Below are positions 1-46,387 of a stretch of 46,387 bases of DNA, one piece after another. The position numbers and the translations under genes are program-made. The notes under the pieces are model-generated. The model did not search any database. It was not told the DNA's origin and saw only the letters and a program-made list of their open reading frames with translations. Every line of letters starts with the position of its first letter. Within the stretch, counting starts at the first letter, position 1. Source of the DNA: Spirogloea muscicola (lineage: Eukaryota; Streptophyta; Zygnematophyceae; Spirogloeales; Spirogloeaceae); NCBI GenBank assembly GCA_009602725.1, contig WELB01000060.1, positions 184,070 through 230,456 of the forward strand. The letters run 5' to 3'.

Positions 1-61
1 GCGTGTGAGTCATGTGGGCGCCCACGTAGCCCCCCCCCGGGCCTCACGCCCCACCCCCCAC

Positions 62-1077: not shown

Positions 1078-1431
1078 AAAGTGGCGCACGTCCTCCGTTG
1101 TGCATATGGCGGCGAGCGAACGGCTGTTCATGACCAACTCAGGGGAGCTATGTTCGGCATTTTCCCAGAGGCAGGATACACGTGGCCATTCAGAACACGT
1201 CCATCATGCCCATCTTGCAAAGGGCTGATGGACTCCACATGCGTCTAGATGACCTGGTGGCCACCACGCCGGACGGTGGCACGCGACTCGTTGTCGACGT
1301 GGGCACCACAGATGTGGTTGACCGACTCGACTTATCTGGTGGACATCAAGACAAAAAGAGAGGCAGGGAGCTGCAGGAGTTTGGCAGGACTTGGCAGGAC
1401 TACAGGATGATAAGATGGCCAGCACGATAGC
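1078..1431 (+). mobile_element. Degraded non-LTR (LINE-like) retrotransposon 3' fragment
   Basis: Two overlapping frames together read like the C-terminal part of a LINE reverse-transcriptase polyprotein. One carries HVLRCAYGGERTAVHDQLRG (about 1090-1150). The other, shifted by a frame, carries MRLDDLVATTPDGG and then TRLVVDVGTTDVVDRL (about 1238-1330). The pattern H-x-L-x-C, an R-x-x-x-HD-x-x-R segment, then D-D-L-V and a VVDV strand is typical of the region after the polymerase domain in many algal and protist elements. The frame change between the parts means the copy is broken. No target-site duplication or poly-A end was found. The assignment rests on remembered motif patterns only. Confidence 0.35.
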
Positions 1432-1886
1432 TCAGTGACTGCAGAGTCAACAGCCAACAGGTCCGACAGGCTAGCTCGCCCAGGAGTACCACCGTAATAA
1501 AGGCCTGCATCAAGAGCAAGTGCTAGCCATTGCCTTGCAGCTCCGGAAAATGACCAGGACGAGCAAAATGCAGCCAGCTGAGAAGCGATCTCGCCTCATT
1601 GCCTTTTCGTCCTCAGCCTCCTCAACTAAGCCAGACCTGCAAGATCACCCTCGAGACCCACTGGCTTGCCAGGCTGGCTACGTGCCAATTGGCAGCACTG
1701 ATGGACAGCCAGTCCAACTGCTAGAAGATCAGCAATTGCTGCTTGCCCTCAGCTGCAGAGGTAGGAAGAGGAGATAATGCATGCAAGCAGGAAGCGTGGG
1801 CACCTCACGCAAGTATCCAGAGCCACAGAGCCAGACCAATCAGCATTACAAAACAAAAAAAGAAATGAATGATAAACATTGCATTC

Positions 1887-4800
1887 TTAGACAGTTGGGT
1901 CGCCCTTGGCCATGGCTTCCAGCAGCCCCTGCATTGCGGCATTCTTTACATCCTCAGGCTCGCCAAGCCGCCAGGGGTACACAAAGTGGTCCAGTGGTGA
2001 GTATGAAATGGCAGGCATCGCTGCCTCATCCTTGGACAGGTATCGCGCCTGGCCTACCTGGAATGCATCGCGATCCCAGCTATCGAATGGGTCCAGGCAG
2101 AGCAGCAGGTTGGGAATAACCACCTGGCCAAAGCACAGGAGCGGACTCCATTTGTCAGTGAACGATACTATCACAGCCAAGAGGTCAACAGCCAGACTAC
2201 ATAGCAGCATGTGAGCTTTTTGGTGGGCGTTGGAGGAGACCCCCCGTCTGAGTGTACAGGAGTAAATGTCATTGCACGAACAAGCTGGCAACACCCATCT
2301 GCTTACTCTGGCGCATGGAATTTGGCAAGGCATGAGGGCCTTGAGGAGAGGGGAAAAAGAGGTGGAGATGCTGCTGCCTGCTGAAGGGCGAGAGTTGATT
2401 GCTCACTTCCTGCTCAATGTTGAGGGGCGCAACGGCACGGATGAGCTGCGCAAGTGCAGCGGCATGCCTGCCCGGGATGTGGAACACATCAGCCTTGGTG
2501 CGACCCAACACGCGGCTGGCGGACGCCAACTGCAAGTTGTTCAAGAGCTCAGCAAGAAAGTGCTTGGGGATGGCTGCCTGAAAATCGTCCATGTTCCATG
2601 GCGGGAGTTGTCCATCCTGCAGAACTGCCTCATCTCGTTGCGGTGCAAGTTGCCAGCCAGCGGCTGTTGCAGCCTTGGCCATGAGGTCTGAGAGCTTCCT
2701 ATCTGGGTCGTCAGGATGTGTCATCCAAATGCGCGAGCGGTTGCAAGCGAGCAGCGCCCAGTAATTGAGCACCGCCTCGCTGTGAAGGACCAGAAAGCCA
2801 CCGGCTAGCGGCCGTGCCGCCATTATATCGGGCAGTGCGCGGTACAGCGTGTGATTGGCGGTGGGGTGGTCGACCTGTACAGCGATTCCAGTCAAGCAGT
2901 GGGCTTTGAGGCCTGACGTGATATGACATTGGCTACTTCAGACTAGACTAGCCCTTTGTACCTCACCAGAATCTTAACAACGACCACTAACAAAGTGCTG
3001 TAGCTTTGGCAATCAATACTGGGTGTCAAACACAGCGCAGCTCCGGATTTAAACTATGACTCTCAGATGCTGAATGAGCGAGGTGAGTGGATACATTAGG
3101 CTTATCATGATAGGTTGAGAGAAGTCATGCACCATCTGGGCGCCGTATTTCGTTGCCACAGGGTCGAGCTCGCCTGCAACCACGAACACGACCTCCCCGA
3201 ACACGCGCCCGTAAAGAGCCCGCAGGAAGCGAATGGACTTCTTCCAAGCTGGCGTCGTGTACGTGATGACCAGGACCGTGTCGGCAAAGGCCATCCGCAC
3301 CCGTCGGAAATGCGCCACCGCCTCAGGGCCTGGCTCTCGCTTGGGGCGCGTCAGCCATTGCCGGGCCTGCGCCCAAGCACAGGCAGAGCGCCCGCGGCCC
3401 CTGGGACCTTAGAGGTCAACCTGTATGTACCCCTGAGCCTTGAAACTTCGAGAGCATAAAACCCCTCACCACCCTACGTACTCGAGCTACCCAGATTGCA
3501 AAGAGCTTCTTACTGTAAGCTCTTAAGTCTGTCCTAGTTGTTGTGAGTAATTGATTGAGAGAGCTTCATAAGTTTCACATAGATAGGCGCGCAGCAATTG
3601 CCTGGCAGATGCACACCTGCTGTAATGCATCGCATAGCCCCACGGTGGCCAAATTGGGCGGCTGCATGCTGCGGGCCGCAAAGACCACCACGCCCGGTGC
3701 GAGGGGGCCGTCAGGAGGCGGTGGGGCCAGCACCTCTTCCTCCTCCTCCTCCACCACACTGTCGCTCGCCGGGCTCGGCGGGCTCATATCGAGCTGTGCG
3801 GCCTTGGCGGCGTCCACAGCCCGTGTTGACACATCTGCAGGGTTGGCCATGGCACTACAGCAAAATGACTTGGAGCCCTTGTGGCAAGAGTAAAGTGGAG
3901 GTCATGCTCATGACCACGATGCTAGACCTCGTTGAGGATACAAGGTGTCCAGGGCCTCGGACAACAACAATCGTGCTTTTGGTGTTGTGAACTTCATTGT
4001 TCCTCAATAAGATAGCATCTTCTTACTCAGTCATCCTCCGCAACATTGGCCATTTTCATTAGTGGAGGTCTGAGGAGGCTAACCCTGAGAGCGGCGCCAG
4101 GTGAGGCAGAAGTCCCTTGCCACAAACGGCTCCAGGCGACTCTTGGTGAAGCACTTTTTCCAGTCGGTGGTCATGAGGAAGCCAACGCAGCGGCAATCCT
4201 CGAGGCATGCGCTCTCACAAGACTCAATTGTCACAGACTCCATGTACTTCAGGTCATTGCCCGGGTAGTCGGTTGCCACCTCCAAGACGAAGCCATCGGT
4301 CATGGAGCACAAGGGGCTATCTGCGACGTTGTGGAGATTGCCACATTTAAGGTCAGCAATTGCAAGGCCGGCACTGCCAGCATTGTTATCGGGGACACAG
4401 CATCGTGCTGAGGCAATGGTGAGTCTTGCCCGAAGTGTCGGTCTGCAGCAGCCGGCGGCTGGCGACTGGTGGGGAGGGCGACGCCGCAATCAACGGCAGC
4501 TGGTAACCAACTGCGGCGAGGTCCTGGAGCCACGCTGCGGTAAGGTGGGAGTCCGCAGGGCCAAGGAAGCGCTCCACGACCATGGCATTGCTGCATGCAC
4601 TTGCACCGCACAAGCTCTGAGAGATGCGCCATGAAAGCCGTGTCGCTCAATAGCAGACGCAGCAGACCCTCGTATCCAGATCCTAGACCTTCAACACCTG
4701 CATTGCCTTGCCAGGTGTCAGCTGCAAATCCAGCAGAAATGGTGGACGTACGTCAGCTCCAGCAGGCGGTCGGCCAGTGTGGCGCCATGGGCCTCCCATC

Positions 4801-22951: not shown

Positions 22952-24915
22952 CTCCTCATGGAAATTGGTGTCGCTTAGCGTTCCGCCCTCAGCCAGCCGC
23001 TTGACCGTCACCACCATAGCATCGGGCAGATCCCCTTTGTACACTGCAGCAGATTCTCACCAAGTCAATGTAGCCGCAGAGGAACAACCTTGTCTACGAT
23101 AGCACGGAGCTACATGTTCCTTGGCAATCTGCTGCAAGCTCGTACTACATTGGCTGAAAGCTCCTCAAAGGCACTGGAACAAATGAAGCAGCTAGGCCTA
23201 AGGACCAAATGTACCTGTGCCAAAAGTGCCAGTTCCAATGATTCTTGCGTCGCTGAAGCTCTCAGTAGCGGCATCAAGCTCCACGGCCTGGATTATGACA
23301 CTCCAGCAGCGAGGGAGCTTGCATCGAGTGAGCTCCAGTACTAAAGAGGTTGCACCTCAGAGTTGCGAGGACCAAGCCAGGCACTAAGAACGTGCAAGAC
23401 ATGAGCGGGTCAGCTGGAGGCCGGTCGACCTTGAGCGGCTCGACGCGGTTGAACATGACGACCTCCTCGGCAGGGAGGGGCCTGCCCGCCCGGCCATCGA
23501 TGCAGCAAGTGGTGTAGCACGTGCAGAGAAGAACAAACATGCCCACGCCAGCGATGACCAATGCTGCAATGACGCCGGCCCCCAGCCCACTGGAGCCTGT
23601 CGACTTCGTGATGTCAGGGGTCCCGCTAGCGGGAGCAGGGGCTGGTGCAGGCCCTGTACTGCGTGCTGGTGGAGGAGGCCGGCGTTGCGGGGCTGGAGCG
23701 GCGGGGCTCCGTGGCGGTGAGTGCTGCCGAGATGGGGGCGGTGGTGAAGAGCAGGCATGGTAGCAGAGGCCCGAGTTGTTTGCAAAGGCGCTTGCTGGAA
23801 AGCCACCGAGCACGCCACTCGCAGGCACAGTGCCCACGAGCTCATTGCGGGAGAGGTCGAGCGTGCGCAAGTGTGCCAGACGGTCCAGCGTCAGAGGGAT
23901 GCGGCCCGACAGCTTGTTCGCTGCAAGGTTCAGCAGCGTGAGCTGCCCGAGGCTGCCAAGCGTGGCGGGGATGGGGCCCGACAGAAGATTGTAATCAAGC
24001 GCCAAGGCTTGCAAATAGGCGATGCGGCCAAACTCAAACGGGATGTCGCCGTGGAGGCGGTTGTGCGATGCCCTGAGCGTGCGCAGTACGCGCAAGCGAC
24101 TGAGTGGCGTCGGAAGGAAGCCCGTCAGATTGTTGCTGCTGAGGTTCAGGGCCTGCAGGCGCAGCAGATTGCCCAGTTCTGCAGGTATGCCGCCCGACAG
24201 CACATTGCCGCCGAGGTCCAGCAGCGTGAGATTCCTGCAGCGGCCCAACGAGCTGCACAGCAAGCAAGGAGCTCATCAGTGGGGAACTACGGTTGCTGTC
24301 CACCGCTGGCGACAGGTGTACAAGGGGTAGGGGCTGGCATCTGACAGCGGCAAGAGCGGAGCGGACCTGGGGATGGGGCTGTATAGGGCATTGCCATGGA
24401 GGTCGATCTGCTGCGCGGCAGTCAGATTGCCGAACTCTGGCGGGATGCGGCCGGTGAGGCGGTTCTGGCTCAGGTCCAGCACCCGCAGGCAGCGCAGCTG
24501 GCCCAGCCTGCAGCAGCATGGCGGCAGCGGCGCATGGGTCGGCCGTCCGAGCAGCACCGTCGCAGCGGCACTCTGCCACGAGTTGCAAGCCAAGCGAGCA
24601 CAGCGAGCAGGGCGCGGCCAGGAGTACCGCACCGGCGGGGGATGGAGCCTGAGAAGTTGTTGGCGGCAAGGTCGAGGACTTCGAGGAGCATGGCGTTGGC
24701 GAGCGTGGCAAACAGCGGGCCCGACAGCACGTTGCCCGCCAGGCGCAGCGTTCGCAGCTGCGACAGCCGCCCGAGCCTCCGCGAGAGGCCGCCGGCCAGG
24801 CGTTGGCCCGTCAGGTCCACCGCCACGACACGCGGCGGTGCCGGGAGCAGGCGGCACGAGACGCCCGTCCAGTTGCACGGCAGCGCGTCGCGCTCGCTCC
24901 AGCTTGACAGCACGC
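22952..24915 (-). CDS. LRR receptor-like protein kinase, truncated at both ends
   Basis: Exons (descending): about 24915-24633, 24507-24367, 24252 to about 23430, 23287-23215 and 23043-22952. The product starts with the plant LRR N-cap (VLSSWSERDALPCNWTGVSC). About ten leucine-rich repeats of the LxxLxLxxNxLxGxIP type follow, then the paired-Cys C-cap (NNSGLCYHAC), a Pro/Ser-rich linker and one transmembrane helix (VIAALVIAGVGMFVLLCTCY). A juxtamembrane segment (DAATESFSDARIIG) leads into a kinase N-lobe with glycine loop GTGTFGTVYKG, the VKRL lysine and a helix-C-like FHEE. No catalytic loop or activation segment exists before the next gene, so the C-lobe is missing, most likely into the gap marked at 22818. 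The signal-peptide exon is also absent: an in-frame stop lies at 24947-24949. The juncture near 23430 is uncertain. Confidence 0.8.
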
Positions 24916-35113: not shown

Positions 35114-35870
35114 TATGGTTGCCCGCTCAAGTACGCTACCGTGCTGCATGTAGTGTACTTGGCAGGATCGAAGCGACCTCCAACGTTGTCGTGCTGCTGT
35201 GCTTGATAGTAAGTGTCAAACTGCACTTGATGTCAAGGTCAGGCCTGTTATCGTTCTCTTGCCGTTGGTGCGGCCCAGATGCACAGCAGCTGTAAAGACT
35301 GGAGTCAGACTGTCAAGAGATAAATGTTCCGAGTGATCTCCATGGACTGCTCCGCTGCGACATCTTATCACTGCATCAAGAGCAACTTCAGCTAGTTTGT
35401 GGAGAGGACCAGCACTCCGTGCATGTTGCCAAGGACTACGAGAGTGGTTATATGAATGGGCTGGTTGAGAGCCACAGGTTTTAAAGGCTACCTTACAAAA
35501 GACCGTCCACTGCTTGCAAATGCTGGACGCATATCGCTGGAAGCACGCACTTGCGTGCGGCTTGGCCAATGGCGGGACTGGTGAGCACATGCGCGGTGCG
35601 GCAGGAAGATGCAGCATTTGACAACCGTATTCGGCAACAACGACCGGAAGATGTTGGTGTTGTCACTGCACAACAAGCTAGACGAGCGAGCCAGCAGGGA
35701 GACGAGGTGCACGCAGAGGCCGCAGAGCCCGAGCTCATGCAGAGCCTGCGGCTAAGCTTGAGGTGTGGGCGCCGGCAAGTACCTTCGTCTGGGCTCGTTA
35801 AACCCCAAACCCCAACTCCCGACCACAAACCCTTCTCATCACATCCTGAACCCTGGACGCTGCGGCGAGA

Positions 35871-35905
<35 letters not shown>

Positions 35906-35943
35906 GTGTTGTGGCGACTGCAGAGGCGGGGAGCCTCGGAGCC
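35114..35943. other. Spacer between two tandem plus-strand genes
   Basis: 3' flank of the DUF1350 gene, then the presumed promoter of the diflavin reductase. Near its right end are a block of AAACCCC words (about 35800-35820) and a pure CCG triplet run (about 35873-35905). An open frame runs from 35551 into the reductase start, but its upstream part has no homology-like content. Confidence 0.5.
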
Positions 35944-38900
35944 ATGCCCGGCGTGCCGGCGTCCGGCGATGCCGCCGGCGGAGCGCCGCCGCCGCTGCTG
36001 GTCCTCTACGCGTCGCAGACGGGGAACGCGCTGGACGTGGCCGAGCGCGTCGCGCGGGAGGCCCGCTGGCTGGCGCTGGCGCCGGCGGTCGCCGCCATGG
36101 ACGCCGTCGACGTCGTGAGTGTGCCCCGAGCTCCGCGCTGCCGTCCGGCGGTCGTGCTTCGCTCGGCTTGCTGACGGCGGCCGTCACGTTGAGGGAGGCT
36201 TGACAGCGTCACCTGGAGGCGCTGCGCCTTGCGGTGTCAATAAAGCCATCTTTAATAACAATATGATAATACTTCATCGGAAATGCTTGCACAAATCGCA
36301 ATCGTACGTAATAGCTGTTTAATCCGCAGACCTCGCTGCCGGCCGCCTTGCACGTCGTCTTCGTGGCTGCAACCACCGGGCAGGGCGACCCGCCTGACAA
36401 CATGAAAGTATGCTTCTAAAGCCCAAACCCTTAATACCAGGGTTTAAGATTATGGTTTAGGATTAGGTTTTAGGCTTGTGATTCCACGGTTAGTTCCGGT
36501 CTGGTAACTTCTTCACGTCGCGAGCTGGCCTGCCTCGCACCGCGCCCGAGCTCTCCTCCTGCACCACGTCCTAGTGCCGGTCTGACCTCCGCCGGCTTCC
36601 AACGCCACAATTCGACTCTTGATGGCCTAGTCTTGGATGCAGGGATAAGGTCTAGGGCGTCCGGTTAGGTGGGGCCAGTTGCATGATGGATGAGGGATGG
36701 TTGGCAAGATTTTGTCACTTATGACTCGTAACGATCTTCAATTAATGTTTCACTTTGCGGATGTCAAGCCATCACTGAACCCCAACGGCCACAGTGAACC
36801 CTCACAATCCGTATACCCACAAGTCGCAACGGTTTTCTTGGCGGCAGAGATTTTGGCGACAGCTGCTGCGCAAGAGCCTGGGACCGGCCTTCCTTGGCAG
36901 CCTCAAATACGCTGTCTTCGGCCTTGGCGACTCTGGCTATGAGAAGTACAACGTGGGTGCCTCGGCAGAGGCCCAGCCCTGATTACTCCGGTCTCTTGCC
37001 TGGCCGCAGTTAGCACAGGTCTCCATGTATTATATTACCTTCGTGTATGGAAGCTTGATTCAAGTTAAAAAGTATAAATAGAAGCTCGTATAGCATTCCT
37101 GCCGATTGCCACTCATGTACTAGAGCTCTTTGTTGCAGGTCGTTGCCAAGAAGCTGGACCGCCGCCTGCAGGATCTGGGGGCCACGCCCATGGTCTCCAG
37201 GGGCCTGGGCGATGACCAGCACCCCTCTGGGTATACTCGAGTTACCTGTGTCACTAACCCTACCTCCTGGGTCATAAGTTGATACTGGCTGCGATGATGT
37301 GTCTTGAATCGTGATAGAAAGACTTGCTTAGTAGTCCTGTCACAAGCTCTTACCATTGTGCATATCTAAGACCAAGGCCGTCACTTGGGGCACTTATATT
37401 TCACATTTGTCTCCACAATGAAAGCCAGTCACTGAACCTGAGACTACCCTCAAATCTTACACCACCATGCGAGACCTTCTCAATTTCCCCCAAGCCGTCG
37501 AGCAAGGAGAGCTGCGGGCAGCTTACTTTCAGTAGTTGTCCAGCATTTGTTGTCCAGTGTTATTTAGCAACTTTATCCTGCATTGGAAACTGTGACCTAG
37601 GTACGAAGCGGCGCTCGACCCGTGGCTGGCAGCACTGTGGGCATCAGGCCAGCTCTTGAATGCCAGGCCCAATGGCCTCTTCCTTGCTCAGCAGGGCCCT
37701 CTTGAGCTCGATCGCGCCAGATATGAGGTTGTGCATCATCAACGTGCAGATACATCCAATGGCAGAGGTGTGTTTAGTGTCCTGCATTTGCTCATCACAT
37801 TGACATAATTGTGTCAAAGCTACTGACATCAGAAAGCATGATAAAATCTTCTGGTGCTGAAAGCCAGCACTGCGTTGAAGCTGAAATGCTCTTGGGCACC
37901 ATGCCAATCCCCTGCAGGCCTACCAGTCTCCATAGATGAGCGTCTGGAGGGCATGAGGATGTTCCACCAGGCTTCCTTGGCTGCAAGCAGGTTTCAAGTA
38001 GGGGGCGCTGTGCCGCCTCTTCTGACGCCGAGCGGTGATTCAGCATTGGGTTACGGGCCACTACGTCCGTACATTGCTGAATTGGTAGGCTCCCCTCCAT
38101 ATAAACCTCATCCTTGCATATGAGTCATTCCATATATGAAACCTGGACCCTGATTCATTGCTTGACGATCTACTTGCGACCTAGGTGTCATTGACAATGG
38201 GCTGCATGGGACGCTTGGTGTTTAATCTAGCAACTTTGGGAAGTCAATCAACTGAAGGACTGCTTGACATTAAGGATCCCTTTTGACTTGCTGCTAGGGT
38301 CAGAAGGAGTTTAAGGTTGAGCATCAGGGCTAATGGCTGGGGCACATGGGGCTCATGGCTCGCTGTTGCCTGTGACCTGCAGTTCTGAAGTATCTGAAGG
38401 TCCAGCAGGCCTGCTGGACTAATAGCATTTGTGTCTCTTTGGGCCGGTTGCTCATCTGACGTCCTTACACGTGTCTCAGCAATGCAAGCCAGGTTGCAAA
38501 CGAGCGGCTTACTGCAGAGGACTGGGAGCAGGACGTGCGGCACATCGAGTTTGATTTAGGATCTTCGGTACTGCGCGATCACCTCGCCCCTTCCTAGGGG
38601 TGGCACGCAGGATTTGCTGAAGGCTTTCACTCGCTTTAGAAAGTCTTGGAGCACCAAGTGTAATAAGAGGGCCTAAACCCAAAGAGATTTGCTGCTGCCG
38701 GCCTCAAGCCAGGGCTCATGCACCTGTCTCAGAGACTTCTGCTGCTGTTGGTACTCTTAGCCATCTCTCACTTGACAAGTCTAAGGCACGAATGCAGGGC
38801 GTAATCTACGAGCCAGGGGATGTCGTGAACATGTACCCAGAGCAGCCTCCAGAGGCAGTCCAGCGCCTCTTGGCGAGACTCTCTTACGATCCTGATGCTG

Positions 38901-41043
38901 CAGTTACTGTAATCAGTCCAACCCTGAACCCTGTTGCACTCATGAAGAGTCTTTGCAATTCTGATCTGGGTATCTTGAGCACTTTCAATGCAACACAGCA
39001 TCAGTAGGGTCCAACTTCTGATTGATTGTTCTTATCGTGATCCATACTTCGAGATAAGAACCTGACTTGATCCTGATTGAGAGACTTCATTGTTGAAGTT
39101 GTGTTTGAGTTGGCCTTCTACTTGACAGGTGCACGTTGTACCGGATGCTTCACCATCAGCAGGCGACGTGGAGACCGTAACACACACTTGTGCTGCCCAA
39201 CCCATCAGAGTGGCAGCCCTCATTGCTGGCGCTCTAGATATATCGTCAGCTTCTCCGCGCCGGTACTTTTTTGAGGTCTGCAGTCATAGCATCAACTTGA
39301 TATGCCTGCTTGAGCTTATGTGCTTTCTGTAAGGTTACTGTACTGGGTGGCAGAGATCCCAATTTAAGTTGACGTATCTCCACTTGTGCCACATGTGTGC
39401 TTGTGCACACACACAGAGGCACTGCAAGTGTCAGCTGAATGCTGCACTCTTTCACCGACATGTGGTGCAGATCATGCGACCTTCAGCTGACACGTCGGCA
39501 TGTTTGGCAGGTCCTCGGCCACTTCGCGGAGGAAGAGAGGGAGGCGGAGAGGTTGCATTACTTCAGCACTGCTGAAGGCAGGGAGGATTTGTTCGACTAC
39601 AACCAGAGGGAAAGGCGCAGCGTGCTGGAGGTGACACATGATGTCCTGAGCATCTGCAATGCATTTTGTCCCTGGATATGTCGGAATCTCTTTGTGAAAT
39701 GCAGCACTTAAGTCCACATGATTGAAGTCAATATTGTGTCTCTGCCGCAGATTTAATGGATGCCTCCACTGAGACCACTGCTCTTGCAACTTCTGCAGAT
39801 CCTGGAAGACTTCCCCTCGGTCCAGTTGCCTCTTCAGTGGCTGCTGGAGATTGCACCGCGGCTACAGCCACGCGCCTTCTCGATCGCGTCATCGCTCCGC
39901 GCCCATCCGCAGCACCTGGAAATCGTGGCCTCTGTTGTGAAGGTGGTCACGCCCTACAACAGAACGCGCTTTGGGCTCTGCTCCAACTGGCTGGCTCAGA
40001 TGGCCCCTTTCAAGGGTGAGCTAAGTCTCAGGCTGGCCAAGCATGAAAGATTGCAGCAAGCATGGTTTCCAGGTTTTAAAGGAGAATAGAGAATAAGTGT
40101 TATCAAGGGCTCCACAGCAGATGCGAAGTGGTTGTCAAGGACAAGCTCATAATGTTGTGCAGTTGCAGCACAACGAGCATGCACTGATTGTTACTGGCTC
40201 TTGTTGAGCTCATGGCCGTCCGCTCCATTCTGCTCGGAGACTCACAGCCTTGGTGCGTGCATGTCTGCATTGGATTGCTTAAGGAGGCCAAGTCCCATTG
40301 TGGGTCTCGCGTGGATTCCTCCACCTGCCGCCTGCTACTGGCACGCCGCTCATTCTCGTTGGGCCCGGCACTGGCTGCGCACCCTTCCGGTCCTTTCTGG
40401 AGGAGCGGGCTTGCCTCCTGCAAGAAGGCCAAGGTCCTTCGTGCAGTGAAAGCCATCGTATGCAGCTGCAAAGCGGGAGCCTTGGCCCCAACATCCTGCG
40501 GCCTGCACCATGTCTTTTCTTCTTCGGCTGCCGAAAAGAGCACGCGGACTTCTTGTACAAAGAGCAGTGGCACCTGTACCAAGCCGCGGGGGGGACCTTG
40601 TCAGAGGCTTGGGGGAGCGGTTTCTATGCGGCCTTCTCCAGAGACCAGGCGCATAAGGTCAGGCTCACTCAACAGCAACTCACATGCTGTGTCGCAAATG
40701 TCATCACACTCCTTGACTCCATTAGCAGAAGGCTGATGATCCCGATCCTCTGGGTCTGTTGCCATTTGACTTTGTGCCTACCATATCGTAAGCCGAGGTT
40801 GCATCATGGTCGCAGATTTATGTGCAACACAAAATCCAGGAGGCAGGGCAGCGCGTGTGGGAGCTCGTGCTGCGGGGTGCAAGCATCTACATTGCTGGGT
40901 CCGCTCAGAAGATGCCATCCGACGTGAAGAGGGCGCTGCAGAGAGTAGCAGAGCACGAGGGGGGGTTCACGCCGTCCGAGTCCACTGCGTGGTTGAGGCA
41001 TATGGAGCAGACTGGTAGACTATCAGTGGAGGCTTGGTCTTGA
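35944..41043 (+). CDS. TAH18: Diflavin oxidoreductase of the TAH18/ATR3/NDOR1 family
   Basis: This enzyme passes electrons from NADPH through FAD and FMN to the Dre2/CIAPIN1 protein in cytosolic iron-sulfur cluster assembly. Thirteen exons close in frame: 35944-36114, 36330-36407, 36848-36952, 37139-37230, 37601-37767, 37918-38084, 38493-38567, 38798-38908, 39129-39275, 39511-39630, 39799-40015, 40284-40657 and 40816-41043. About 683 residues result, somewhat longer than typical. FMN domain: LLVLYASQTGNALDVAE, VAATTGQGDPPDNMK, FGLGDSGYEKYN, GLGDDQHPSG. FAD domain: RAFSIASS (the R-x-[YF]-S flavin motif) and LCSNWLA. NADPH domain: LVGPGTGCAPFRSFLEER, FFFGCR, AFSRDQ, IYVQHKIQE, the C-terminal AWS. 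Met 35944 begins just before the FMN fold, so the protein is probably cytosolic. The linker between FMN and FAD domains is long. Confidence 0.9.
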
Positions 41044-42277: not shown

Positions 42278-45200
42278 TCAAGTGAAAATTGTGACAACGT
42301 CCCGCCGATAGCCGCGGACCATGAGCAAGCGTGGAATGCCGTCCACGAGAAGGTCCATGTATTCCATGTAGCAGTATGATGGGTGGTGGTGTGGGGGAGG
42401 GGGGAGGGAAACAAGCACCACCGCAGCCGCGCGTGAATACCGCATGATGATTGAGTTGAGCTTGATCGCCGTGTATATGAATTTGTTTACTTTCTCCTCG
42501 GACACGGACCGGTACTCAAGTGTCTCGTTGCTGGCACTGCCCTCAGACATGTTGCCCACATGTGCCATGATTCGCTTCCGTGCCTGCATGTGGCAACCTT
42601 TTATTGATCAATATTCCCTCCAAGTCTCAACCACCACAACTTCCAAAAACTTTTGATGACCTCTTGAATATAAGCACAAGATGCTATTGTCAGGTTGGGC
42701 TAAACTTCGAAACCAGGCCAACCTATGCGGCCGCGTATTTGTGACCCCAACAAAGACAGTGTAGGGCATGAAGACCTCTGCATGAGGGATCGGAACCTGC
42801 GGACCTTTGAGAAAGCCTCCAGAGTTCCAGCACGAGCTGGATCTGCTTCTTGGTCCTCCTTGTGCTCCTCCCACGACTTCATCGTCACCACGATGACCTC
42901 TGCTTGCATTCTCAGGTCGTACAGAAACTTCCGTACATCTCTGCAGCACCATCCTTGCAACCTCTATTAGGCATCAGGCGCGGGTAGGCACTAGCGAAGC
43001 TGATCACAAGTCAGCTGGTCTTCACAAACATCAGGGAACCTTGGTATCCTCATCTAGCTGGTGTGTCCAATACACGCCAACTTGACCACGAATTGAGATA
43101 CTGAAGCAATAAAGAAGTACAGCTACATGCTCATCGCGACAGTGTAGATGCCAGACAGAGAGAAGCAAAGGCCAGGCTTTCAAGGCAATAAAGCTTTGAC
43201 CCTTAGAGCTTGTGTACCTTGTGAATTCCTCTGCTTCTGAGTCCTCATCTGCTATGCAGAAGACCTGGATGCGGCAGCTCTCAAAGCTTTCCTTAGCTCT
43301 AAGAAGCTGGGAAAGGAGGAGCATGATGCCACCGTCTCTGACTATCCAATATAGATCAATCGTGCCATACTGCTTCTGAAATTCTCCTGGCCACTCATCC
43401 AGCCCTTTGACAATGACGCAGGCCTGCACAGCTCAAGGAATGCAGTATTAATACTCACAACCAAGACAGAGGCTGCTAGAAACATGTAACAAGCAACAAG
43501 ACAGAGACTGCTGATTATGTGTCAGCTATTGAACCAGCATTGCCAGCTTCAAAGTTAGCCAAGCAACCCACCTCAGCTCAGATGAGATAAGTGCTTCAGG
43601 AGACTGAGCAAAGATATCATGAGCTTGCAGATTCAGTCACAGCTTTGCAATTCTTACCTTGTTAGCAACCGAGCAGTCATTTATAATGGAGACAAAAGTG
43701 TCCGGAATGTGCTTATTGTGCCCCTCCCCTTCATTTCTCCAAATCTCAGGGTACCTCAGGCAAACGATATTGGGCTTGAGATTGGCTAACCCCATGCACT
43801 GGACGATGGCCCTAAAGCCATCTCGCATGTCAGGAGCAACAACAACCTCAGCAACCCCTTCGCAATTCTTATAGTCGATGTACGTAGCCAAAAGCCGGCT
43901 GGCATGACGGCTTTCCTCCACTTTGTCCCTGCATCACACAGAGTATGAAGAGTGTCATAAAAGTATCATGCTTATCTATCTTCTCCAAGCAATCCATAAC
44001 ATGCCAGGTTAGAACCACGACACTAACCAATTGCTATACATATGTGGCAGGGAGTATGCGGATACATGGATAACATGACTCCAGGGCAATGTAGCTAAAC
44101 TCCATAGTAGACTCCAGAGGGCAGGAAGGAGACAATGATATCTCTCAACAAAGGCTATAAGTAGCGGCGAGACATTAAGATTCTGCCAATTGCTTACTTG
44201 TAAGGCCCTTCTAGGATGCTCACGAAGAGGCTCATCCCACGACCCTTTTTCTTCATGCAGTTTGCAAAGTCAGCAAGCTTTGGGTGGCACGGCACATCCT
44301 GGGGAAGGATACCCCAAGGCTTGCAGAAGATGAGGGGTATTGGGTACCAATTCTTGGGGTGCACGGCAGTGGCTGTGCAACAGGTGACAGACAGATGATA
44401 CATCAGAATCATAACAACCCAAAAACTCTACATGCACATAGCAACTGCTCATGCCTTTTACACAAAGAAATCAGCTTCACCTCCAAGAGATCTCAATGAT
44501 CGTAGGGCCAGTTGGAAATAAGCAGACTTAAAACCATCCCCCCAATCACCCGCTTTCCCCTTCTTGCCAACGTAGTAGTAAATAAGAGCAGCAAGCGCCA
44601 ACGACACAATGGTGAAGCCCCAGGAAATCATGAACATGATGACTGCACACAGGAACATTTGGAGATAGAAGAGCTGGGTATGAGAATGTGAGAAGCTTGT
44701 AGAACATATCATCTAAGGCTTGCAGCCTCTTTGTGTACGTACCAATATGCACAAGGATACCCAAGGGTGAAAGCAAGGAAGGGACTGGCAGGATGTCAGA
44801 AATTTTAGCAGATTGTGAAAGGCAATCACAACTTCTCTGACCATCAGGATCAATTTCCTGTTTACGAGTCAGCATCGCAAGTAATGGAATCACAATGTTA
44901 CTGGTCTTCACAGAATGCTCACCTATACATAGAATGGCACCAGCAAGAGAAGCAGCCCAATGGTGCCATTTCCAGCGAGGGCGCCAGCTAGGAGCATCAA
45001 GGAGGTCCAAGAGAAAGCAGGACAAATTAACGCCGCAATAACAGAGAAGGAAAAACATGGTGATGACAGGAGTGATGTAGTCCAGGTTGCCAATTACAAC
45101 ACAACCACAGCAGATGAGCATGGTGAATAATGTAGCCACATTTGGCTCCGTGCCATCTGGAGCCTGCAAATACACCAAATCAAGAACATAAGATCTCTGA

Positions 45201-46387
45201 CGTTGTTAGACTCACAGAAGGCTAAACATCACAAGGAGCGTCACAAGCGTCACAAGGCCTCCTCGGTCAACGAAGCATTAAAGCCAAAGGACTCCTAAGG
45301 CGCAAGGGGCATAACCAGCTTGGAAGTACCTTGCACCAGTTCAATATTGGTAGAATGTCATCATTTGCAATTGCAGCAAGTAGACGAGGGGCACCAGTGA
45401 GGCTTTGCAATGCTGCACCTAGGGTTGACAGGATGATGCCAACATAAACGACAGCTGGAACTGGCCAAGCAAGGGTAGCGAGTAGAAGCCTGCAGGTATT
45501 CACAGAGGAAGCAACAACTGTCAGCCAAGATGCAAGAGGTCTTGGGCAAGGCAACACAAGCCTACTCCATAAACCACACAAGCAGTCAGCAATCTGAGGT
45601 CAATAACATTAACAACTATGGAAAACCTAGGTAGTGATGCAATCCCAAGTCCTGGTAAGAAGTGGTGGCTGTCATACTGCCGAGGAACTGTCTTCACAGC
45701 TACTTCTGAGACCAGTATGCATGCTAGTCACCTGTCTGTCAGAAGTACCTCACGGACAGCAACAGCCCCAATCAAAAAAGTAGAAACGACATAAAGGACA
45801 GTGGAGGCCCCAATTGCTGAAAGAGTGCCAGTTGGAATGGCCTTCTGAGTATCTCGCAGCGAGGCAGACCGATTTGAGCCAGCCATGATTCCCGTGACAG
45901 CAGGGAAGAAGAGGCCCATGAGCGCACTGCAGAAGTGACAAGGGGGAAACAGGTTCTTAGCATTGAAGGTCATACTCACCGATCTACCAGAAGAACCTCA
46001 CGTGTAGCGACAGCTCCAATGATGAAGACTGAGACGACGTAGAGCACAGTTGTGCAACCAATTGCTGACAAAGTCCCCACAGGAATAGATGTCTGGGTAT
46101 CACGAAGAGATGCGGAACGATTTGACCCAGCCATGATGTCTGTCACAGCTGGGATGAAGAGGCCCAGCAAGGCACTGCAGTGGTTTAACAGTTTACTATC
46201 AGACTCCTTGACCATGGCGCCTCGTTTAAAATGGGAGTTGGTCACATGACCAGTGTCTAGTAAGCTTAAAAGCAGTGTATGCTCACTTGAACCCCCAATA
46301 GAAGCTGCCATTTGGGGAAGGTATGCCAGCATGGTTGGTCTTCTGATAGGCAGAGCCCCAGTTGCTTTTCAAGGTCTTCCACCTCAC
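42278..46387 (-). CDS. CCC1: Plant-type cation-chloride cotransporter (CCC1/SLC12 family), 5' part outside window
   Basis: CCC proteins co-transport Cl- with K+ (and Na+). Plant CCC1 works in endomembranes and controls lumen pH and ion balance. Exons (descending): beyond 46387 to 46287, then alternative exons 46174-45980 and 45926-45732, then 45489-45330, 45163-44923, 44642-44481, 44372-44198, 43928-43658, 43423-43219, 42940-42805 and 42583-42278. Splice phases agree throughout. Landmarks are YQKTNHAGIPSPNGSFYWGFN, the TM6 block PAVTxIMAGSNRSASL, LSTLGAALQSLTGAPRLL, CFLLDLLDAPSWRPRW, GKAGDWGDGFKSAYFQLAL, HPKNWYPIPLIFC, ADFANCMKKKGRGMS, YGTIDLYWIVRDGG, VVLVSLPPPP and MEYMDLLVDGIPRLLMVRGY. The match to land-plant CCC1 is close over the whole visible length. 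One segment is present twice as adjacent exons. Confidence 0.92.
45732..46174 (-). other. Duplicated, probably mutually exclusive exon pair in CCC1
   Basis: Exon A is 46174-45980 and exon B is 45926-45732. Each is exactly 195 bp, starts with the third base of a codon, ends with two bases of an Arg codon and is flanked by CTGCAG acceptors and GT donors. They differ at 12 of 65 residues. Either one joins in frame to the upstream exon (FN/AL) and the downstream exon (DR/LLL). The intron between them is 53 nt, against 76 nt or more for every other intron I could define in this window. Confidence 0.85.

Follow-up and report, generated by a model that had tools for sequence, protein, structure and literature searches.

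Does a cation-chloride cotransporter (CCC) gene of Spirogloea muscicola carry two exons of which only one enters each transcript, and how would the choice between them alter the transporter? We addressed this in a window of 46,387 nucleotides, the whole stretch of contig WELB01000060.1 (C60) that was analysed, in which two tandem exons of equal length, here called A and B, lie near the high-numbered end. The reading that we favor, and consider likely, is that A and B are mutually exclusive exons derived from an old tandem duplication in a KCC-like gene, yielding either an ordinary (B) or an altered-chloride-site (A) isoform. The features on which the following account draws are, in the direction of transcription:

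46287..46387, minus strand: 3' part of exon 9 (C60 beyond the window is N; the whole 115-nt exon was taken from contig C5)
46175..46286, minus strand: 112-nt intron between exon 9 and exon A
45980..46174, minus strand: exon A, the variant copy, TM6-TM7, 195 nt
46153..46155, minus strand: Ile codon ATC of exon A, in place of the Phe that precedes the proline of the K+ site, in 3/3 gene copies
46138..46140, minus strand: GAC (Asp) at the position of the Cl2-site glycine in exon A, in 3/3 gene copies
45927..45979, minus strand: A-B intron, 53 nt, with 2 variable sites and no gaps among three copies
45956..45960, minus strand: CTAAG, putative branch site for exon B by motif score only
45930..45951, minus strand: pyrimidine-rich tract of acceptor B (0.82)
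45732..45926, minus strand: exon B, the canonical copy, TM6-TM7, 195 nt
45890..45892, minus strand: GGA of exon B, encoding the canonical glycine of the Cl2 site
45490..45731, minus strand: 242-nt intron between exon B and exon 11 (490 nt when measured from exon A)
45330..45489, minus strand: exon 11, the downstream exon common to both forms
42278..45163, minus strand: 3' exons of the CCC gene; the final exons are seen, their borders not set
45163-44923, 44642-44481, 44372-44198, 43928-43658 and 43423-43218, minus strand: exons 12-16
42280-42278, minus strand: TGA stop, immediately past the end of the family profile

The two exons share length and phase, are each preceded by CAG and followed by GT, and fit the same neighbors; the coordinates that the first-pass annotation gave for the pair are exact. 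The exon chain is open with either of them, 9(part)-A-11..16 and 9(part)-B-11..16 each having 503 codons and no stop. On contig C5, exons 1-9 followed by A also form an open reading frame, from a start ATG of our choice. Among direct repeats exceeding 15 nt within 44000-46387, exons A and B constitute the sole family (208 nt, 73%), a span that leaves only about 6 nt of similarity beyond each exon. The encoded peptides had been called near-identical, which overstates their likeness, as the exons differ at 55/195 nt and the proteins at 12 of 65 residues (53/65 identical, 82%).

The membrane part of the protein matched human KCC1 with an E value of 7e-109, compared with 1.5e-67 for NKCC1 and 2.4e-56 for NCC, and is thus nearer to KCC. 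Pfam matches were to AA_permease and SLC12, and the partial protein of 503 aa used as query scored 572 against TIGR00930, for which the cut-off is 953.4 bits. We infer that the gene product is a KCC-like cation-chloride cotransporter of the plant lineage, presumably resembling AtCCC1. In the portion of PMC5855714 consulted, plant CCCs are placed closer to animal KCCs than to NKCCs. Exons A and B of C60 aligned to TIGR00930 positions 282-345 and 283-349, respectively. The exon carries TM6 and TM7, because KCC2 residues G413 and Y446, located in these two segments according to passages of PMC10518353, correspond to residues 13 and 46 of the exon; the duplicated unit had previously been described as one transmembrane segment, which is one too few.

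The assembly (153 Mb, 471 contigs) holds the CCC gene at three genomic places, on C60, C41 and C5, with exons A and B in each. All 35 profile matches fall on these three contigs, and the profile search of the contigs, which weak matches can escape, revealed no further CCC gene having only one such exon. Genes for a flippase, LeuRS, AlaRS and a chaperonin occur in two to four copies on separate contigs and that for a V-ATPase subunit on one contig only. A recent whole-genome triplication in S. muscicola is attributed to Cheng et al. 2019 in a section of PMC9065682. The presence of the pair on three contigs, each with its own intron differences, together with the extent of divergence between the two exons, leaves a negligible probability that the pair is an assembly or sequencing artefact, a reading that could invoke nearby oddities, namely a tandem 5' half of the gene in C5 and N upstream in C60. 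The former lies in C5:1298000-1307500 (reverse strand, 1291-4117), where the 5' half, to the start of exon 9, is present twice with one N between the copies, and may be misplaced scaffold sequence from another copy; the latter lies upstream of the window. Elsewhere in the window, the plus strand at 35551-40924 encodes a flavodoxin domain (35551-36171) and an oxidoreductase NAD-binding domain (40298-40924), perhaps within one diflavin reductase gene that stands tail to tail with the CCC gene, and a leucine-rich-repeat protein with a possible membrane segment, recognized by eye, is encoded on the minus strand at 23277-24263.

Comparison of the three gene copies showed how differently the parts of the gene have changed. 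Exon A varied at 2/195 sites, both synonymous, and thus without any amino-acid change, and exon B at 5/195 sites in five codons, three of which alter the protein. The seven other exons varied at 56/1314 sites and the seven introns other than the A-B intron at 297/1341. Relative to these introns, both exon A (p 3e-17) and the A-B intron (2/53 variable, no gap; p 3e-4) were conserved (one-sided Fisher tests), and with C41 and C60 alone the contrast between exon A (2/195) and the adjoining intron 9 (14/112) persisted (p 2e-5). Synonymous changes were also fewer in A and B taken together (4 in about 111 sites) than in the seven other exons (49/294; p 2e-4). Regulated exons often show low synonymous change; the scarcity in A and B could reflect constraint by splicing signals or conversion between copies. 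C60 and C5 do not differ at all between exon 9 and the end of exon A, so that the low divergence may stem partly from such conversion or from mixing in the assembly, synonymous sites included.

Between A and B, dS was 1.24 and dN 0.16, so the duplication long preceded the split of the three copies. The 54 nucleotide differences in 65 codons cause 12 amino-acid changes, while 2000 random placements of 54 changes caused 32 on average and never fewer than 23, with a stop created in 1337/2000 cases. Both exons thus look old and maintained by selection in all three gene copies, with conversion perhaps contributing in part. These observations bear on the view that A is a useless duplicate, seldom or never spliced in, and that B alone matters, which we hold to be improbable: A has retained 53/65 identity at a dS of 1.24, it has no amino-acid change among the copies against three in B, and its TIGR00930 score is close to that of B (75.1 vs 78.6 bits in C60; 71.1 vs 79.9 in C5). 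On the other side, the Pfam AA_permease score of A is below that of B (25.9 vs 32.8 bits), the pyrimidine tract at its 3' splice site ranks last among 16, and it is without a glycine and a phenylalanine found in 80/80 prokaryotic relatives (the best 80 of at least 552, the glycine count being limited by the search pattern). KCC1 agrees with A alone at residues 30, 33, 42 and 50 and with B alone at residues 8, 13, 29 and 52; since A is the sole match at four residues, it is not simply a decayed B.

The first-pass annotation did not mention the change at the glycine in question. Exon residue 13 is Gly in B and Asp in A in 3/3 gene copies, so the Cl2-site glycine is not present in both isoforms. 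This residue corresponds to G433 in KCC1/KCC4 numbering and to G413 in KCC2, which is, in the parts of PMC11994965 and PMC10518353 that concern it, one of three TM6 residues holding the second chloride via the main chain. Residues P9 and T12 of TM6, belonging to the K+ site, are present in both A and B. Among the best 80 of at least 552 prokaryotic relatives, ranked by likeness to exon B, none had Asp at residue 13 and 80/80 had Gly; all 80 carry PAVT-x-IMA, and as the search pattern admits only Gly or Asp at this position, the count speaks for the absence of Asp and not for the invariance of Gly. The Phe at residue 8, which lies outside the search pattern, was likewise found in 80/80 of these best matches, and exon A has Ile.

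For transport by Gly-to-Ala mutants at this position, passages of PMC11994965 and PMC10518353 report 41% for KCC2 vs 34% for mock, indistinguishable from mock, and 78% for KCC4 vs 38% for mock. Extrapolating from these Gly-to-Ala substitutions, isoform A is predicted to have altered chloride coupling or to act as a non-transporting dimer partner.

The intron between the exons, first reported as 53 nt and confirmed as such at 45979-45927, is well below the other introns sampled from this genome. The shortest of 121 other introns, with lengths estimated from neighboring profile matches, was 93 nt. This small survey comprises 75 + 46 estimates from six families, the CCC gene itself among them, with homoeologs that are not independent; neighboring matches were counted only within 12 (75 estimates) or 18 (46 estimates) profile positions, and in-frame introns buried within one match escape it. 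It used 217/261 match rows (CCC 22/35, V-ATPase 11/11, other families 57/63, 8/11, 34/37 and 85/104), the rows of exons A and B being left out deliberately and the other dropped rows being judged, without individual checks, to have no adjoining neighbor. Estimated lengths had a sharp lower edge near 93-104 nt, seven introns read exactly measured 93, 93, 95, 102, 102, 103 and 104 nt, and the other introns of the CCC gene ranged from 108 to 396 nt. Apparent shorter introns did not hold up where read: chaperonin matches were separated by four raw gaps of 50-69 nt, three of which were read and proved to be introns of 102, 103 and 102 nt, and an apparent 84-nt insertion on contig C267 was a GC-AG intron of 93 nt.

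If the branch point keeps 18 nt or more from the 3' end of the 53-nt intron, no A serving as such can be farther than 35 nt from the donor. Exclusive choice between exons 4a and 4b of human OGDH is enforced by branch points 25-41 nt away from the donor, short of a threshold near 50 nt, as described in passages of PMC7969005, which cites alpha-tropomyosin as the classic steric case. Branch points were assigned here by motif and are guesses. The branch-like motif previously singled out as the best in the A-B intron is present, as CTAAG with its A at nt 23 of the intron and 30 nt short of the 3' end, and is equaled by ATGAC with its A at nt 10, both scoring 6/7. The acceptor of exon A has a full-score branch-like CTGAT (7/7) 24 nt from the intron end. 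Pyrimidine content, scored for 16 acceptors, was highest for B (0.82) and lowest for A (0.47), and by its tract exon B would perhaps be the default choice; the branch motif of acceptor A (7/7) beats those of B (6/7), which argues against a clear default.

Other ways of enforcing exclusion fared worse. Pairing of RNA docking and selector elements was no better than in shuffled sequences, 92 to 200 of 300 mononucleotide shuffles reaching the observed energy (three introns with exons, five duplexes, window copy only, one method). Incompatibility of U2 and U12 splice sites does not apply, the listed introns all being GT..AG, as judged against the U12 consensus. Nonsense-mediated decay (NMD) cannot enforce exclusion because every combination of the exons stays in frame: double inclusion, as already claimed for this locus, keeps the frame (568 codons, no stops), and skipping of both exons leaves 438 codons, also without stops.

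The same open frames allow the choice to be a loose one, with A as an optional cassette, some transcripts containing both exons or neither, and regulators choosing in place of a steric block; moreover, the threshold of about 50 nt comes from human OGDH and not from this alga. We nevertheless regard a loose choice as unlikely, given that the spacer of 53 nt has 57% of the length of the shortest other estimated intron and that double inclusion would repeat TM6-TM7, a unit for which each of 32 solved CCC sequences has a single match to exon A. Still further from expectation, and very improbable in our judgment, is the constant inclusion of both exons, through which the protein would gain an extra TM6-TM7 hairpin; it would be in frame, and an added pair of membrane segments would arguably preserve the overall orientation, but the spacer is far shorter than other introns and three KCC1 alignments contain no such insertion.

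Mutually exclusive use of A and B by steric hindrance, in turn, fits the 53-nt conserved spacer. The earlier proposal that the intron is too short for both exons to be joined is accordingly favored by the anatomy (53 nt vs 93 nt for the shortest other intron, and a conserved spacer), from which exclusion itself is inferred. The sequence of events would begin with the old tandem duplication of the TM6-TM7 exon in a KCC-like gene, from which A and B arose. Presumably the spliceosome could not occupy the branch point of B while it is bound at the donor of exon A, the A-B junction would not form, and splicing would yield either 9-A-11 or 9-B-11. Form B would be an ordinary K-Cl cotransporter, and form A, keeping the Pro and Thr of the K+ site with an Asp in the second chloride site, would have changed chloride coupling or serve as a non-transporting dimer partner.

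Exclusive exon pairs are already known from animals and Volvox, as are CCC variants produced from an alternative membrane stretch. In the account given in part of PMC4301019, variants A, B and F of NKCC2 (SLC12A1) differ in an alternative 23-aa stretch in TM2 and ICL1 that alters ion kinetics. The parallel with NKCC2 drawn in the first-pass annotation is apt in kind, both cases concerning a membrane-domain stretch of a CCC that comes in alternative versions, and inexact in location: the Spirogloea pair, as predicted from the gene, covers TM6-TM7 with residues of the K+ and chloride sites, has two copies, belongs to a gene of apparently plant lineage and includes a change in the Cl2 site. With OGDH 4a/4b it shares a duplicated exon pair and putative branch points too close to the donor of the first exon; the OGDH intron, according to the section of PMC7969005 concerned, measures 118-131 nt in birds and mammals and has distant branch points, whereas that of Spirogloea is 53 nt in all. 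Among green algae, passages of PMC4378016 describe exons 4/5 of Volvox carteri cyn23, of 106 nt each, as mutually exclusive, with isoforms differing in 13 residues, the gene being one of those checked experimentally; this equal-length pair resembles ours, but cyn23 encodes a cyclophilin-related protein. The Spirogloea gene falls in the same family as plant CCC1 and CCC2, treated in the consulted part of PMC5855714. We found no report of alternative splicing or of an exon pair in a plant-lineage CCC in the open-licence papers searched, and "splic", "exon" and "isoform" had no match in the available text of that plant CCC review. What appears to be new, judging from the gene, is the Asp that exon A has where the second chloride site normally has its glycine, within an exon pair of a plant-lineage CCC.

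Exclusive splicing of this pair would give two transporters to an alga for which the search recovered only a single kind of CCC gene, and would do so through a very compact steric switch, with a 53-nt spacer where the other sampled introns start at about 93 nt. A more tentative possibility, which we put forward with low confidence, is that splicing sets binding at the Cl2 site, normal in B, while in A the charge of its own Asp would cause K+ to be moved with different or no chloride coupling. If true, one gene would have two coupling modes and would hold a natural, selection-kept Gly-to-Asp swap in the Cl2 site. It is debated, as a passage of PMC10518353 sets out, whether KCCs use their second chloride site for transport or as an allosteric one, and a naturally kept isoform with Asp at this site would offer a ready test of its role.
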